Assembly: GCA_021806045.1 (NCBI GenBank)
Contig: JAJZDI010000018.1
Span: 1 to 64,000 of the forward strand
Length of the DNA stretch: 64,000 nucleotides
Origin: Actinomycetes bacterium
Lineage (GTDB): Bacteria > Actinomycetota > Acidimicrobiia > Acidimicrobiales > RAAP-2
Direction of reading: 5' to 3'
The stretch's first letter is position 1; each line of letters starts with the position of its first letter. The translations under genes were made by a program, and so were the position numbers. Shown piece by piece: positions 7,795 through 60,808 of the stretch. A model generated the notes under the pieces. That model saw only the letters and a program-made list of their open reading frames with translations, was not told the DNA's origin and did no database searches.

Positions 7795-8820
7795 TCAGCC
7801 CCCTGAGACGTCCTGGATGCGCTCCTTGCCCGCCCCGATGAACGGCATCATGGCCCGCAGCTCGGCGCCCACCTTCTCGATGGGATGCGCCAGGCCCTCC
7901 TCCCGCAGGCGGGTGTAGTTGGGGCGGCCGTTGCGGTTCTCCGCCACCCACTCCTCGGCGAACCGCCCATCGCGGATCTCGGCGAGGATCCGGCTCATCT
8001 CGTCCCTGACGGCCTGGTTGATGACCCGCGGTCCCCGGGTCAGGTCGCCGTACTCGGCCGTGTCCGAGATCGAGAACCGCATGCCGGCGATGCCCTGCTC
8101 GTACATGAGGTCCACGATCAGCTTCAGCTCGTGCAGGCACTCGAAGTAGGCGGACTCCGGCTGGTAGCCGGCGCCCACCAAAGTTTCGAAGCCGGCCTGG
8201 ACCAGGGCGGTCAGCCCCCCGCACAGCACCACCTGCTCGCCGAAGAGATCGGTCTCCGTCTCCTCCTCGAAGGTGGTGTCGAGCACGCCCGCACGGGTGG
8301 CGCCGATGGCGTGCGCGTAGGACAGGGCGAGGTCGTGGGCCCGTCCCGACGGGTCGGCGGCCACGGCGATGAGCGAGGGGACGCCGCCTCCCTCGGTGTA
8401 CGTGCGGCGCACCAGGTGGCCCGGGCCCTTGGGTGCAACCATGGCGACGTCGACACCGTCGGGCGGTGTGATGAGCCCGAACCGGATGTTGAAGCCGTGG
8501 GCGAAGAAGATCGCGTCGCCCGCCTGGAGGTGGGGAGCGATCGACGCCTCGTAGACGGACGCCTGCTCGGTGTCGGGCAGCAGCAGCATGATGAGGTCCG
8601 CCTCCTCCGCTGCCTGGTCCACACTGACCACCCGCAGGCCGGCCTCGGCCGCCTTGGCTGCCGACGACGATCCCTCACGCAGGCCGACGCGGACGTCGAC
8701 CCCGGACTCGGACAGGTTGCGGGCGTGGGCGTGGCCCTGGGAGCCATAGCCGATGATGGCCACCTTGCGGCCGGCAATCAGGCTCGGGTCGGCATCCTTC
8801 TCGTAGTACAGCGTGGCCAT
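7795..8820 (-). CDS. ilvC: ketol-acid reductoisomerase
   Basis: Second common step of valine, leucine and isoleucine synthesis: isomerises and reduces acetolactate or acetohydroxybutyrate with NADPH. The protein has 341 residues, the normal length of class I enzymes. It shows [16 protein letters not shown] (dinucleotide binding), [13 protein letters not shown], and the metal-binding knotted domain with [12 protein letters not shown] and [13 protein letters not shown]. The ATG at 8820 follows the ilvN stop by 80 bases. It is the last gene of the ilvB-ilvN-ilvC operon, so its expression should respond to the leader attenuator upstream of ilvB. Confidence 0.98.
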
Positions 8821-8900: not shown

Positions 8901-9440
8901 TTAGGCAACCACGCGGGGCCGCTCGGCGACCCCGGTGGCCCGATCCAGTCTGGGCAGCGCCACCCGGCCGGTCCGCTGGAGCTCGACGATCCCGTACCCG
9001 CGGATGAGCTCCTCGAAGTCGTCGATCGTCTCGGGTGCCCCGGCCAGCATCACGGTGAGCCGGTCCGCCGACACGTCGATGATCTTCCCCTCGAACACCC
9101 CCACCAGCTGGATGACCTGGCCCCTCGTCTCCGGTCCGGCCGACACGGTGGCCAGCAGCAGCTCGCGCTCCCGGGCATCCGCCGGGGCCAGCTCGGAGAT
9201 GTCCACCACCGGCACCAGCTTGTGGAGCTGCTGGACGATCTGCTCGAGGGGTGCGGACTCCACGTCGACGACGATGGTGATCCGGCTGAAGCGGGCGTCG
9301 TCGGACGGGGCGACGGCCAGGCTCACGATGTTGTAACCGCGCCTGGAGAAGAGGCCGGCCACCCGGGCGAGCACGCCCGACTTGTTCTCCACCAGCACGG
9401 ACAGCGTGTGGTGGCAACGATCGGTCGTTGCGGCGGTCAC
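8901..9440 (-). CDS. ilvN: acetolactate synthase small (regulatory) subunit
   Basis: Regulatory subunit of acetohydroxyacid synthase; family members bind valine and activate the catalytic subunit. The protein has 179 residues with an N-terminal ACT domain ([32 protein letters not shown]) and the C-terminal ALS_ss_C region. The GTG start overlaps the ilvB stop by 4 bases (9437-9440), so the two subunits are translationally coupled and probably made in fixed ratio. Confidence 0.97.
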
Positions 9441-11299
9441 TTGGCACCTCCCGTGCGCAGCGCGGCCAGCGTGGCGGCCTGGCTGGGATCGACCACGATC
9501 TCGTCGTTCGACACCCCTGCCGGCACCATCGGGTAGACCTTCTCGAAGGCGTCGGTGCGGAAGTCGATCACGACCGGCCGGTCGTCGATGTCGTTGGCCT
9601 TGTCGATGGCCGGCGCCACCTCATCGGGCGACTCCACGCGGAGCCCCACGCAGCCCATCGCCTCGGCCCACCCCACATAGTCGGGCAGGTCGGGAGACAG
9701 GTAGACCTCGGAGTAGCGCTCCTCGTAGAACATCTCCTGCCACTGGCGCACCATGCCCAGGTAGGCGTTGTTGAGGATGGCGATCTTGACCGGGATCCGC
9801 TCGGACGACGCCGTGACCAGCTCCTGGGCGGTCATCTGGAAGCACCCGTCGCCGTCCACCGCCCACACCATCCGGTCCGGACGGCCCACCTTGGCGCCGA
9901 TGGAGGCCGGCACGGCGAAGCCCATGGTGCCGAGACCCCCGGAGTTGACCCAGGTGTAGGGATGGTCGAAGCGCCACCACTGCGACGCGAACATCTGGTG
10001 CTGCCCCACGCCGGAAGCGACGATCGTGTCCGACGGGGTCGCATCCCGCAACGTCTCCAGGACGAACTGGGGCTTCAGCCCCCCGCCCTGCCCGGTTGCA
10101 CCGGCGTCGGCCTCGTAGGTGAGGGGGAAGGTGCGCTGCCACTCGGCCAGCTGGGCTCGCCACTCGGCCAACCGCTCGGCCGGCCGGTCGGCCGCACGCG
10201 TGCCCGGCACCGGGCGGGCGCCGGCCGGGGCATCGGCCGGGGTGGCCGCGGGGTCCAGCACGGCCCGGGCACCGTCGTCGTAGGGCAGGCCGGCAGCGTC
10301 GAGGGCGGCGAGCATCTCGTCGATCACCATCCGGCAGTCGCCGGCGATGGCCACGTCGGCACGGCGCACCTTGTTGTGCTCGGCCGGGTCGATGTCGACG
10401 TGGATCACCTTGGCCCCGGGGGCGAAGTCCGACACCTTGCCGGTGACCCGGTCGTCGAACCGGCTGCCCAGGGCGATGAGGAGGTCGGACCGCTGCATCG
10501 AGGTGACCGCGGTGAAGTTGCCGTGCATGCCCGGCATGCCCAGGCACAACGGATGGGAGTCGGGGAACGCGCCACGGGCCATCAGGGTGGTGACGACCGG
10601 GATCCCCGTGCGTTCGGCCAGTTCGAGGAGCGACCCGGCCGCCCGCGCCTTCAGCACCCCCCCGCCCGCGTAGATGACGGGACGCTCGGCAGCCAGCAGG
10701 AGGTCGACTGCCGCCTGGATCGCCTCGGGGTCGCCCTCCATCTGCGGCCGGTAGCCGGGGAGGTCGAGGTCGGCCTCCGAGGGCTCGTACCAGGTCATGG
10801 TGGCGTTCGACACGTCCTTCGGCACGTCGATGAGCACCGGTCCGGGCCGGCCGGTGGTGGCCACGTGGAACGCCTCGGCGACGATCCGGGGCAGGTCGGC
10901 GGGGTCGGTGACGAGCCAGTTGTGCTTGGTCACCCCCATGGTGATGCCGGTGATGTCGCTCTCCTGGAATGCGTCGGTCCCGATCGCGCTCGTCGGCACC
11001 TGCCCGGTGATGGCGACGAGCGGGATGGAGTCCATGAACGCGTTGGCCAGGGGCGTCACCACGTTCGTGGCACCAGGACCGCTGGTGACCATGACCACAC
11101 CGGGCCGGCCGGTCACCTGTGCGTATCCCTCGGCCATGTGACCGGCACCCTGCTCGTGGCGGACGAGCACGTGGCGGATGGAGGAGTCGAGGATGGGGTC
11201 GTAGACGGGGAGGATCGCCCCGCCCGGAAGGCCGAACATCACCTCGACGCCCTGCGCTTCGAGGCTCTTGATCAGTGCTTGGGCTCCGGTGAGTTCCAT
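9437..11299 (-). CDS. ilvB: acetolactate synthase large (catalytic) subunit
   Basis: Thiamine-diphosphate enzyme condensing two pyruvates (or pyruvate with oxobutyrate) to start branched-chain amino-acid synthesis. It has 620 residues from ATG 11299 ([20 protein letters not shown]). The conserved GLPGGAILP and [14 protein letters not shown] carry the catalytic glutamate region; [14 protein letters not shown] to ILNN is the ThDP motif. A proline/alanine-rich insert lies at about residues 345-375. The reading frame continues upstream through the leader, but the start here matches the family and follows the attenuator. It is first in the operon with ilvN (overlapping) and ilvC. Confidence 0.98.
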
Positions 11300-11420
11300 G
11301 TGCTGCTCCCTGTCTCCTGTTCTCGGTGGTGTGGTGTCTCGGTGGTGTGGTGTCTCGGTCGGTGACCTGGTGCCCCCTACGGGCCCGGGAGTCGGAACCG
11401 ACCGGCACCCGGACACGAAA

Positions 11421-11444
11421 ACGACCTCCCGTCGGGGAGGTCGT
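11421..11444 (-). terminator. ilvBNC attenuator terminator hairpin
   Basis: Read on the minus strand, a perfect 10-base stem (ACGACCTCCC with GGGAGGTCGT) closes a 4-base loop and is followed directly by TTTTCG, the layout of a Rho-independent terminator. It lies about 120 bases before the ilvB start and after a short leader reading frame. A second perfect stem of 9 bases (11447-11455 with 11467-11475) sits between leader and terminator and overlaps the leader stop; it could be the pause or competing structure. Regulation by branched-chain aminoacyl-tRNA supply is inferred from known ilvBNC attenuation in other actinobacteria. Confidence 0.75.
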
Positions 11445-11474
11445 GGGCGCACGCGTCGAATGGGGTCGCGTGCG

Positions 11475-11519
11475 CTAGGCGACGAGTACCTCGGTGCGGG
11501 GTGCGATGGCTGCGTACAT
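11475..11519 (-). CDS. putative ilvBNC leader peptide
   Basis: A 14-residue reading frame, [14 protein letters not shown], ending in TAG and placed just upstream of the attenuator hairpins. It contains Ile, Val, Leu and Val codons, the amino acids made by the downstream operon; three of the four fall in the last five codons (V-L-V-A end), where ribosome stalling would affect the following stems. There is no convincing Shine-Dalgarno sequence, but a promoter-like pair ends only 9 bases upstream of the ATG, so the leader may be translated from a leaderless transcript. It is too short to judge by coding statistics; the call rests on position and content. Confidence 0.55.
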
Positions 11520-11528
11520 GACCGATCC

Positions 11529-11557
11529 AGTGTGCCACGTCGACCACGCGGGCACAA
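11529..11557 (-). promoter_or_regulatory. candidate ilv leader promoter
   Basis: On the minus strand TTGTGC (11552-11557) and CACACT (11529-11534) are separated by 17 bases. Transcription would begin near the leader ATG at 11519. Both hexamers depart from consensus, so this is a position-supported guess only. Confidence 0.35.
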
Positions 11558-11666
11558 CCCCCTCGTGAACCGGGCGCGTCCCAACACCTGGTGCCGGTGG
11601 CTAACGTGACCGTGGAGCCGGGCCGGCAGGTGCCGGGTGTTCCGGCAGGACGAGCGAGGGGGACCC

Positions 11667-13334
11667 ATGGGCAGCACACCCACCACCGAGTCCGACGCGG
11701 ACCGCCGGGGAACGATGCGGCGTCTTCTCGCCCCGGTGATCGCCGCTGCTGCCATCCTCGGCCTGGTGGCGGTGGCGCCGGCGGTGGCCGGCGCTGCGCC
11801 GTCCCCCCGGGTGCCGACGACCACGTACCAGCTGTCGCTGGGCGACTCCCTCGGCGCCGGCTACGGGGCCACCTCCCCCGCCGCCGACTACGCCAGCCTG
11901 GTCGCGGCCCACGAAGCCACCAACTTCCCCGGTCTCACCCTGGAGAACCTGTCGTGCTCGGGTGCCACCACCAACTCGATGATCAACGGAGGCGGGTGCA
12001 GCTACCCGACCGGCAACCAGCTCGCCCAGGCGGAGGCCTTCCTGCGGGCCAATGCCGGCCACGTCGCCTACATCACCATCGACATCGGCGCCAACAACGT
12101 CGACGGCTGCCTGACGAGCGGGACGATCAACCTGAGCTGCATCATCAACGGACTGACCAAGCTCGAGACCCAACTGCCCGAGATCGTCGCCGGGCTGCAG
12201 GCGGCCGGTCCCGGGGTCCCCATCTTCGGCATGAACTACTACGACCCGTTCCTGGCCCAGTGGTACACGCCGGGCGGCTCCCAGGGGCAGACGAACGCCA
12301 CCCAGTCGGCGGACCTGGCCAAGATCCTCGACGGCACGATCGACAACATCTACGGCTCCTACGGCGCGTACCCGGTCGACGTCGAAGGTGCCTTCGCCAC
12401 CCAGGACTTCGGCGACACCGGGACCTACAGCGGGACCAGCCTCCCCCTCAACGTGGCCACCATCTGCAACTGGACCTACATGTGCGGCTCGCTGGCCGGC
12501 ACCTACGGCATCCACACCAACGACACCGGCTATGGCGTGCTGGCCGCCACCTTCGAGCACGTCATCGACCGGTGGTTCCGGGGGGGTGGGCACGGCCAGT
12601 GGCTGACCTCATCGAATGGCACCGTATACCCGGTGGGCAGTGCCGCCAACCTGACCACCTCGGTGGCGCACCTCAACGCCCCGATCGTCGGCATGGCGCC
12701 GACCCCCGACGGCGGCGGCTACTGGCTGGCGGCGGCGGACGGCGGCGTGTTCGCTCTGGGCACCGCACACTTCTACGGGTCCATGGGGGGCAGGCACCTC
12801 AACGCGCCGGTGGTGGGCATCGCCGCCACCCCGGACGGCAAGGGCTACTGGCTGGTGGCCGCCGACGGTGGGGTGTTCTCCTTCGGCGACGCCACCTTCC
12901 ACGGTTCGACCGGCGCCCTGCACCTGAACGCGCCGATGGTGGGCATGGCCGCCGACTCGTCAGGGCACGGCTACTGGCTGGTGGCCGCCGACGGAGGCGT
13001 GTTCGCCTTCGGCGACGCCCCGTTCCTCGGCTCGACCGGCGCCTTGCACCTGAACGCGCCGGTGGTGGGCATGGCCCCCACCGTCGACTCGGGCGGCTAC
13101 TGGCTGGTGGCCTCGGACGGTGGGGTGTTCTCCTTCGGCGACGCCACCTACCACGGCTCGACCGGTGCCCTGCACCTGAACGCGCCGGTGGTGGGCATGG
13201 CCGTCTCGCCGACCGGGTACGGCTACTGGCTGGGCGCGGCCGACGGCGGTGTGTTCACCTTCGGCAGGGCCACCTACAACGGCTCGGCCGCCGGGGACAT
13301 GCCGGCGACCGTCGTCGCCATCGCCACCGACTGA
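11667..13334 (+). CDS. secreted SGNH hydrolase with five 42-residue C-terminal repeats
   Basis: A 555-residue exported protein. An Ala/Val-rich signal peptide (residues about 17-45, ending near VAGAAPS) precedes an SGNH/GDSL esterase domain: [12 protein letters not shown] holds the nucleophile serine, [12 protein letters not shown] the block III asparagine, and [13 protein letters not shown] the C-terminal histidine. From about residue 335 five tandem 42-residue repeats follow, each with [10 protein letters not shown] and [17 protein letters not shown]. Such repeats are frequent in surface proteins of Acidimicrobiia-like actinobacteria and probably form a propeller or a wall-binding module. 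The substrate is unknown. Start ATG 11667 has a strong ribosome site (GCGAGGGGG). It is divergent from the ilv operon. Confidence 0.87.
12669..13298 (+). repeat. five 126-base tandem coding repeats
   Basis: In-frame units begin at 12669, 12795, 12921, 13047 and 13173, each coding HLNAP as its first residues. The middle three units are the most alike; the first and last have drifted, as expected for an array that expands and contracts from inside. Confidence 0.92.
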
Positions 13335-60369: not shown

Positions 60370-60758
60370 CGGTGTGATCTCCTCGTTGTGCACTTGGACG
60401 TACACACCGAGCATCACGCCGGTGGCTCACCTCATGGTGGACCGGCCCCGAAACCCCACCACGTGGGGGGACTCATACGGCGAGGGCAGAGTGGCCCAGC
60501 GGACGACCACGACACCACGTCAGGCCGAGATCCTGGCCGCCCTCGAGATCGCCGAGCCAGGCCGCTTCCTCGATTTCGAGCTTCCGACGCCCTCCGCGTA
60601 ATCCCTGGTCACAGGCTCGCGTAGTAACACGGCACTCGTGAGGTAGGCCGCTGGTTCGGCGTTCCGCTGTAGGTCGGCCAGGCTCAGTCCCGTCGGTTTC
60701 CCGATCAGGTGCGTATTCCGGCTCGCCATGGTCGTCGCCTCCCCAGCAGCCCCCTATC
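60370..60758. other. interval between IS256 fragment and intron 3' end
   Basis: A hairpin CCCCAC-CAC-GTGGGG lies at 60454-60468. On the minus strand 60520-60729 can code 69 residues (MASRNTHLIGKPTGLSLADL) with a good ribosome site (GGGGAGGCG), directly after the intron 3' region; it may be the 3' exon of an interrupted gene or chance. Confidence in that gene is about 0.3. Confidence 0.35.
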
Positions 60759-60791
60759 GAACCGTGCATGCGGTTCTCCCGCACACGGCTC
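60759..60791 (-). ncRNA. group II intron domain V
   Basis: Minus-strand GAGCCGTGTGCGGGA followed by GAACCGCATGCACGGTTC folds into the conserved 33-34 base domain V hairpin that carries the catalytic triad region. It lies just after the reverse transcriptase stop, the normal place. The intron's 5' ribozyme domains are not in the window because the reverse transcriptase itself is 5' truncated. Confidence 0.8.
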
Positions 60792-60808
60792 TCCGACACC
60801 GTTCACCG

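Follow-up and report, generated by a model that had tools for sequence, protein, structure and literature searches.

The question raised by this locus is whether the short open reading frame (ORF) and the two hairpins ahead of ilvB act together as a switch on branched-chain amino acid synthesis, and which amino acids such a switch would sense. The DNA analysed, referred to here as the window, is a single stretch of 64,000 nucleotides. An earlier sequence-only reading had described a complete ilvBNC attenuator in it, with a leaderless leader peptide. The present analysis indicates that the locus is very probably an off-switch for valine and leucine production, operating through the test translation of a 14-residue leader. 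The attenuator is real, conserved and ordinary in kind, and it is not unusually short.

Architecture and conservation of the locus

All of the attenuator elements are located on the minus strand together with ilvB, ilvN and ilvC, as judged by direct reading and family assignment. The leader ORF (11475 to 11519) consists of 14 codons, with its ATG at 11519, its last codon ending at 11478 and a TAG stop at 11477-11475. The first hairpin, P1 (11447 to 11475), is a stem of 9 bp with a loop of 11, detected by reading, folding and covariation. Its arms are GCGCACGCG (11475-11467) and CGCGTGCGC (11455-11447), and in the window its first base is the G of the leader stop codon, an overlap of one base. 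The second hairpin, P2 (11421 to 11444), is the stem of an intrinsic terminator, identified by folding, a terminator scan and covariation. It comprises 10 bp between the arms ACGACCTCCC (11444-11435) and GGGAGGTCGT (11430-11421), closed by a CGAC loop. The terminator T run (11418 to 11421) was found by reading and by the terminator scan and reads TTTT followed by CG; the stem itself is followed by TTTCG, and the count of four includes the last stem base.

A Shine–Dalgarno-like GGGAG (11306 to 11310, direct reading) precedes the ATG of ilvB at 11299. This first controlled gene (9437 to 11299) encodes the acetolactate synthase large subunit and scores 748.8 bits against NCBIfam TIGR00118, the cut-off being 538.35. 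It is accompanied by ilvN (8901 to 9440; acetolactate synthase small subunit, NCBIfam TIGR00119 / NF008864) and ilvC (7795 to 8820; ketol-acid reductoisomerase, NCBIfam NF004017 / TIGR00465), where the ilvC start is our own choice and the listed ORF is longer.

The folding energy of the 111-nt RNA is -44.4 kcal/mol, compared with -33.3 +/- 3.5 for its shuffles (z -3.19), and 2 of 200 shuffles were equally stable. P2 is the sole terminator-like site that a generic scan finds in 11250-11700, with 0.1 expected. Fold, covariation and scan agree in placing an intrinsic terminator between the leader and the first gene. At gathering thresholds, Rfam 15 returns one match in the whole window, outside the attenuator; it is a group II intron (RF00029) at window 60638-60793 on the minus strand, at 45.2 bits with a gathering score of 40.

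Upstream regions were fetched by IlvB from 31 genomes and 80 named loci. The class involved is apparently Acidimicrobiia, an assignment drawn from the locus titles: 74 of the 80 refer to Acidimicrobiia groups or broadly to actinobacteria, and L071, L083, L085, L090, L100 and L104 carry another group name or none. Rows at contig ends (L015, L043, L080) and exact duplicates (L038, L045, L050) were dropped. The module of leader ORF, stop at the P1 start, P1, P2 and T run is present in 99 of the 102 distinct ilvB upstream regions of readable length, where L051 and L054 were added to the count by eye. This spread bears out the ORF, the 9-bp stem on its stop and the 10-bp terminator as real elements, as had been proposed from the window. 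For the leader counts, L051 and L100 were dropped as wrong picks and 19 near-identical rows were removed, reducing 97 leaders to 78. The stop begins between -2 and +1 nt from the first base of P1 at 66 of 77 loci. At L098 and L100, the leader, P1 and the terminator were not seen in the 400 nt ahead of ilvB, an apparent loss of the attenuator. L084 keeps a terminator (GACCTCCC/GGGAGGTC) within 400 nt of ilvB; by eye, the short ORF ahead of it is cysteine-rich and carries no GTA run.

As read from the alignment, P1 and P2 covary and are conserved hairpins. In alignment A1 (59 of the 78 sequences), standard pairs fill 93.7% of the cells of the two stems, and changes on both sides are seen in 11 of 15 modelled pairs (6 of 9 in P2, and 5 of 6 in P1, whose counts lean towards P1 since it was placed on the alignment by hand). 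None of 500 shuffles reached the observed covariation values of P1 and P2, and slid pairing partners were just 32-56% paired. The first covariance model had lost P1; in the second, R2, it was written in by the analyst from the alignment.

That P1 and P2 are strongly conserved in sequence would also suit an RNA with a protein or small-molecule ligand, such as a riboswitch or a ppGpp-type sensor, with the ORF incidental. The parts of PMC10272879 available to us describe a ppGpp riboswitch on ilvB in some Firmicutes, and they also report that Corynebacterium ilvB-II RNA was unchanged by ppGpp in in-line probing. Such a ligand is very unlikely here. Across 11300-11600, Rfam 15 yields no gathering-score match and, at relaxed scores, matches at E of at least 3 only. 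Conserved loop positions resembling a binding pocket were not seen in the alignment by eye, and the unpaired sequence that is conserved consists of specific codons in a reading frame.

Built from 59 ilvB-type sequences, R2 has hits in 240 of the 296 class genomes; class members match by construction, since both R2 and a further model, R3, were built mostly from class sequences. In the phylum it matches 101 of 396 genomes, 69 of the 101 being marked as outside the class. Downstream genes were checked at the fetched loci rather than at all matching genomes; IlvB motifs lie downstream in 29 of the 30 loci returned by the phylum search, and the one locus without them, L120, is short. At 23 further loci outside the class, the next downstream motifs are those of IlvB at 13, CimA at three and isocitrate lyase at two. 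The remaining five (L181, L182, L183, L185 and L186; E 0.0014 to 0.0091) show no such motif, so the weakest matches include chance ones.

The same layout precedes an isocitrate-lyase-like gene, judged from its translation and one motif, at two loci outside the class, L164 (G337:C2:100150-103000) and L165 (G394:C40:58030-60900). It consists of a leader with GTA, a stop-abutting hairpin and a GACCTCTC-type terminator. Translated by eye, the leaders end in RRSVSAS and SRVSGL and are not rich in branched-chain residues.

The promoter-like pair noted earlier in the window consists of a -35-like TTGTGC (11552 to 11557, minus strand, direct reading) and a -10-like CACACT (11529 to 11534, minus strand), the latter 17 nt past TTGTGC and 9 nt ahead of the leader ATG. 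These hexamers are weak by themselves: TTGTGC falls under the threshold of a generic promoter scan, which reports no promoter in 11250-11700. Support for the pair comes from the relatives. Columns -38 to -35 are T-rich in 75 related leaders (0.43-0.47 T), and a [TC]ANNNT hexamer ends 4-10 nt 5′ of the ATG in 46 of 55 related ATG leaders, with a background of 0.009 per position. The ORF picker rewarded -10-like hexamers at starts, and this count was made with starts picked blind to promoters. Shine–Dalgarno-like words occur in 6 of the 75 leaders compared with 56 of 78 ilvB genes, and the window leader has none. With so few of these words and a -10-like hexamer just 5′ of the ATG, the leader ORF is probably leaderless, as the sequence-only reading had implied.

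Leader codons ahead of ilvB and of leuB and cimA

The window leader contains one isoleucine codon (ATC), two valine codons (GTA and GTC) and one leucine codon (CTC), of which GTA CTC GTC form codons 11-13 and are the putative control codons. A short ORF with codons for the end products is therefore found ahead of the operon. Among the 78 non-redundant leaders, GTA makes up 126 of the 185 valine codons in the last eight (0.68). Its share in the ilvB genes of these loci is 0.02, and the number expected when each leader is judged by its own ilvB gene is 5.9. Threonine and alanine codon choice in these leaders is about that of ilvB, and there are modest shifts in leucine CTC (0.61 vs 0.43) and isoleucine ATT (0.24 vs 0.09). 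The leaders are enriched in valine (0.30 vs 0.09 in ilvB) and leucine (0.22 vs 0.07), threonine is raised (0.11 vs 0.06), and isoleucine is not enriched (0.07 vs 0.06). With starts as picked by script, 74 of the 78 leaders have 10-18 codons.

A first count of GTA in 78 of 78 leaders was biased, the ORF picker having favoured GTA; the count was therefore repeated with the stop picked solely by its adjacency to P1. In this blind frame test, 118 GTA in the last 24 nt are in frame, whereas the two alternative frames contain 3 and 2; 74 of 77 loci have one or more in-frame GTA. The test chose a different stop from the ORF picker at L053, L077 and L102, and L105 has no P1-adjacent stop. GTA, a rare valine codon, thus appears to be nearly invariant in ilvB leaders across the class. 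Conservation of the leader codons, whose absence the sequence-only reading had named as counting against it, is present; the GTA enrichment, the covariation of P1 and P2 and the terminator scan together uphold its branched-chain leader peptide, its two hairpins and its intrinsic terminator.

Many genomes have a second match. Across 17 class loci, the layout stands ahead of ilvB in three, leuB in nine and cimA in five, and at each of the nine leuB loci cimA lies about 2 kb further on. Family assignment was confirmed for two leuB proteins and one cimA. The leaders before leuB and cimA mostly carry runs of isoleucine codons, ending for example in LTSIIIIR, GNAIIIIL and LRRVIIIP. The genome of the window has such a twin of its own, MSWLRATVIIIA, before leuB at G000:C35:6473-6550 on the minus strand (locus L200/L248), its first residues translated by eye. 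It has a hairpin and a terminator, and cimA is located downstream on the same strand.

A covariance model of the leuB/cimA type, R3, was built partly from the genomes of the 31 relatives. With ilvB modules counted and E values of up to 1 allowed, it matches 30 of these 31; its second hit in the genome of the window is the ilvB leader. LeuB or CimA motifs lie downstream in 27 of the 30 returned loci, and by coordinates the other three stand directly before leuB. Within the class, where matching is again partly by construction, R3 matches 124 of 198 genomes, some of them through the ilvB module. The hairpins of the leuB/cimA type also covary. Of 32 sequences, 25 (among them L200, L196 and L209) have a conserved U-G wobble (GTCC/GGGC) in P2, a feature that is odd for a purely pairing part and may hint at a second partner.

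For the leader comparison, 30 leuB loci were reduced to 21 (six without the motif, L189 without a terminator, L195 weak, and L197 identical to L196). Together with 16 further loci these gave 37, and the removal of L191 as a wrong pick left 36; L153, which represents the gene of L191, was left out. At least two isoleucine codons are found among the last six in 28 of the 36 leuB/cimA leaders vs 0 of the 78 ilvB leaders, and at least one leucine codon in 7 of 36 vs 70 of 78; similar leaders were not removed from the 36, and test values therefore overstate their independence. One architecture is thus used with codons changed to suit the pathway, and this swap, seen in sequence comparison, is strong evidence that the leader codons are read.

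It could be argued that GUA is kept for RNA pairing or cleavage rather than for decoding, as GTA also occurs in 21 of the 37 leuB/cimA leaders tabulated (the misplaced L191 row included). This is unlikely. The distance from GTA to the stop varies from 2 to 7 codons, mostly 3-5, and GTA is nearly confined to one frame; the duplex and edge pairing tests described below found no conserved partner for the leader region.

Outside the class, cimA leaders at L173, L174 and L175 end in VIID, VIIT and RIIGS, with the same arrangement of hairpin and terminator. The isoleucine twin may therefore be wider than the class.

Proposed switch and the search for an antiterminator

We consider with high confidence that the locus is a ribosome-mediated transcription attenuator of ilvBNC that senses the charging of valine and leucine tRNAs. 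Transcription would start on the leader ATG itself or no more than a few bases from it, and the ribosome would load on the leaderless end. When charged Val-tRNA (the GUA decoder) and Leu-tRNA are ample, the ribosome would reach the stop, P2 would form and RNA polymerase would halt before ilvB. When the charged tRNAs are scarce, the ribosome would stall at GTA-CTC-GTC, P2 would be prevented and ilvBNC would be made. We infer by analogy with Corynebacterium glutamicum and Mycobacterium tuberculosis that leader translation controls read-through, and in this direction; how stalling would prevent P2 we infer as well. Since P1 starts on the stop codon, its folding would report the ribosome position: a ribosome sitting on the stop is expected to hide the 5′ arm of P1, and one halted 3-5 codons earlier to leave it free.

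A classical attenuator requires an antiterminator that is mutually exclusive with the terminator. By nested, equilibrium folding, a conserved nested antiterminator was not found in 78 ilvB-type and 24 leuB-type sequences, and the word “complete” in the sequence-only reading was therefore too strong. Pairing of the P2 5′ arm was computed at ten edge positions in the 78 sequences. With RNA left free under a GTA-stalled ribosome, it averages 0.04 at edge 0 and 0.07 at edge +3; with upstream RNA, it reaches 0.35 at edge -15 (above 0.5 in 15 of 78) and 0.24-0.26 from +9. Duplexes between the P1 region and the P2 3′ arm are no better than those of swapped partners (native -9.76, swapped -9.80), those between the leader and the P2 5′ arm are slightly worse than swapped ones, and those between the leader and the P2 3′ arm do not differ significantly (native -8.08, swapped -7.94). 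Type-by-type mimicry between the P1 region and the P2 3′ arm was likewise not significant (24 of 65 ilvB-type and 24 leuB-type sequences).

P2 formation was also modelled in the 78 sequences under a 26-nt ribosome footprint, located on either the stop or the GUA. At an early step, when 4 nt of the P2 3′ arm are available, P2 formation averages 0.587 with the ribosome at the stop vs 0.743 at the GUA, and is lower at the stop by more than 0.2 in 23 of 78 and higher in 6 of 78. In this simple folding model, the mean runs opposite to the expected direction. With the full 3′ arm there is no difference (0.979 at the stop, 0.977 at the GUA). The window itself goes the expected way, with early P2 of 0.82 at the stop vs 0.67 at the GUA. 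Without a ribosome its early P2 is 0.02, presumably through hindrance by the free leader RNA in the model; this hindrance is not conserved in the set.

In the leuB type, the 3′ half of P1 pairs the P2 5′ arm at 0.41-0.45, only when the P1 5′ arm is masked (24 of 27 sequences, with L161, L199 and L212 left out as failing the patterns). As modelled, this contact is the 2:3 pairing of classical attenuators, though formed with the ribosome at the stop. The mismatch may reflect either a footprint that is too short, or fast release at the stop with P1 reforming, or else a pseudoknot or kinetics.

These negative searches would also agree with P2 acting as a terminator that attenuates constitutively, or serving to stabilise the mRNA or to form its end, behind a leader that is translated but non-regulatory. 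In the portions of PMC1262725 on which we draw, substitutions in the possible control codons of the Streptomyces coelicolor ilvB leader had no effect, a result that also weighs against ribosome-mediated control. A constitutive or structural role of P2 is quite unlikely here, as it leaves unexplained both the confinement of GTA to the reading frame and the exchange for isoleucine codons ahead of leuB and cimA. A wider form of ribosome-mediated attenuation can be put forward, tentatively and with considerable doubt. The Acidimicrobiia would possess a set of leaderless attenuators that share a single design and differ in the codons they read, with a P1 switch in place of a classical 2:3 antiterminator. 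GUA would be kept because the charging of a single minor valine isoacceptor is read. Val-GUA and Leu would then be read ahead of ilvB and Ile ahead of leuB-cimA, and P1, begun on the stop codon, would report the arrival of the ribosome there.

Comparison with known attenuators

A prior description of the attenuator in Acidimicrobiia, of the class-wide GUA pattern or of the leuB/cimA isoleucine twin was not found in our searches of the open-licence literature. With the present findings, translation-controlled ilvB attenuation reaches a class whose known genomes are mostly uncultured, and roughly one hundred natural variants become available for identifying the antiterminator. The near-invariant rare GUA and the isoleucine twin predict which tRNA is sensed at which operon, and they support the leuB-cimA operon as isoleucine-making.

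To our knowledge, the genome list of the 2005 survey by Seliverstov et al. includes no Acidimicrobiia. That survey proposed ilvB leader candidates in Actinobacteria, with the mode of control unclear (PMC1262725, in the sections available). Its leaders resemble the present ones in being short ORFs with runs of isoleucine, valine and leucine codons that overlap terminators; unlike here, a leuB/cimA attenuator is not reported in those sections of PMC1262725. In Streptomyces lividans, the leader IlvL, MRTRILVLGKRVG, has 13 residues and is leaderless by RNA-seq (PMC8079986, in part). It shares with the window a short leader, probably leaderless in the window too, hairpins and a U-rich tract, but is counted in that part of PMC8079986 with one valine codon only.

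In M. tuberculosis, excerpts of PMC13236596 report a short ilvB1 transcript and an upstream ORF (uORF) in which the change of LVVI to AAAA eliminated induction. GUA is drawn there as the regulatory codon, and the antiterminator is described as underexplored. Compared by overall layout, the ilvB1NC system is like the present one in its branched-chain uORF with GUA, its intrinsic terminator and the proposed direction of control; unlike here, a predicted antiterminator is drawn and the leader is 166 nt long (PMC13236596, same excerpts).

In Corynebacterium ilvB-II, the uORF usually has 15-17 residues and covers most of P1, according to the text of PMC10272879 at hand. P2, the U run and a uORF rich in branched-chain residues are all found in the window; the uORF does not extend over P1 as in ilvB-II but ends at its start. 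Both ilvB-II and the C. glutamicum leader share with it a branched-chain leader of similar length, an upstream hairpin, a U-run terminator and the ilvBNC genes (PMC10272879 and PMC11857589, in part). In both, an antiterminator sharing terminator bases is proposed in these portions of the two papers, unlike here, where no conserved one was found. It is described as not completely clear for C. glutamicum in the same portion of PMC11857589.

The suggestion that the shortness of the leader may mark a variant does not hold up against these lengths in Corynebacterium and S. lividans, nor against those of the relatives. For C. glutamicum ilvBNC, as far as the consulted portion of PMC11857589 describes it, transcription begins one nucleotide from the ATG of the leader MTIIRLVVVTARRLP, the terminator is backed by mutations and the control codons are CUU and GUA; earlier work cited there found that valine-to-alanine changes in the leader lose valine-dependent expression. 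The window would thus share with C. glutamicum a leaderless leader and GUA among the control codons (PMC11857589, same portion). The precedents in C. glutamicum, M. tuberculosis and Streptomyces mean that this kind of switch is already known; what makes the Acidimicrobiia form a useful variant of it is a P1 that starts at the stop codon, a nearly invariant GUA and an isoleucine-reading twin.
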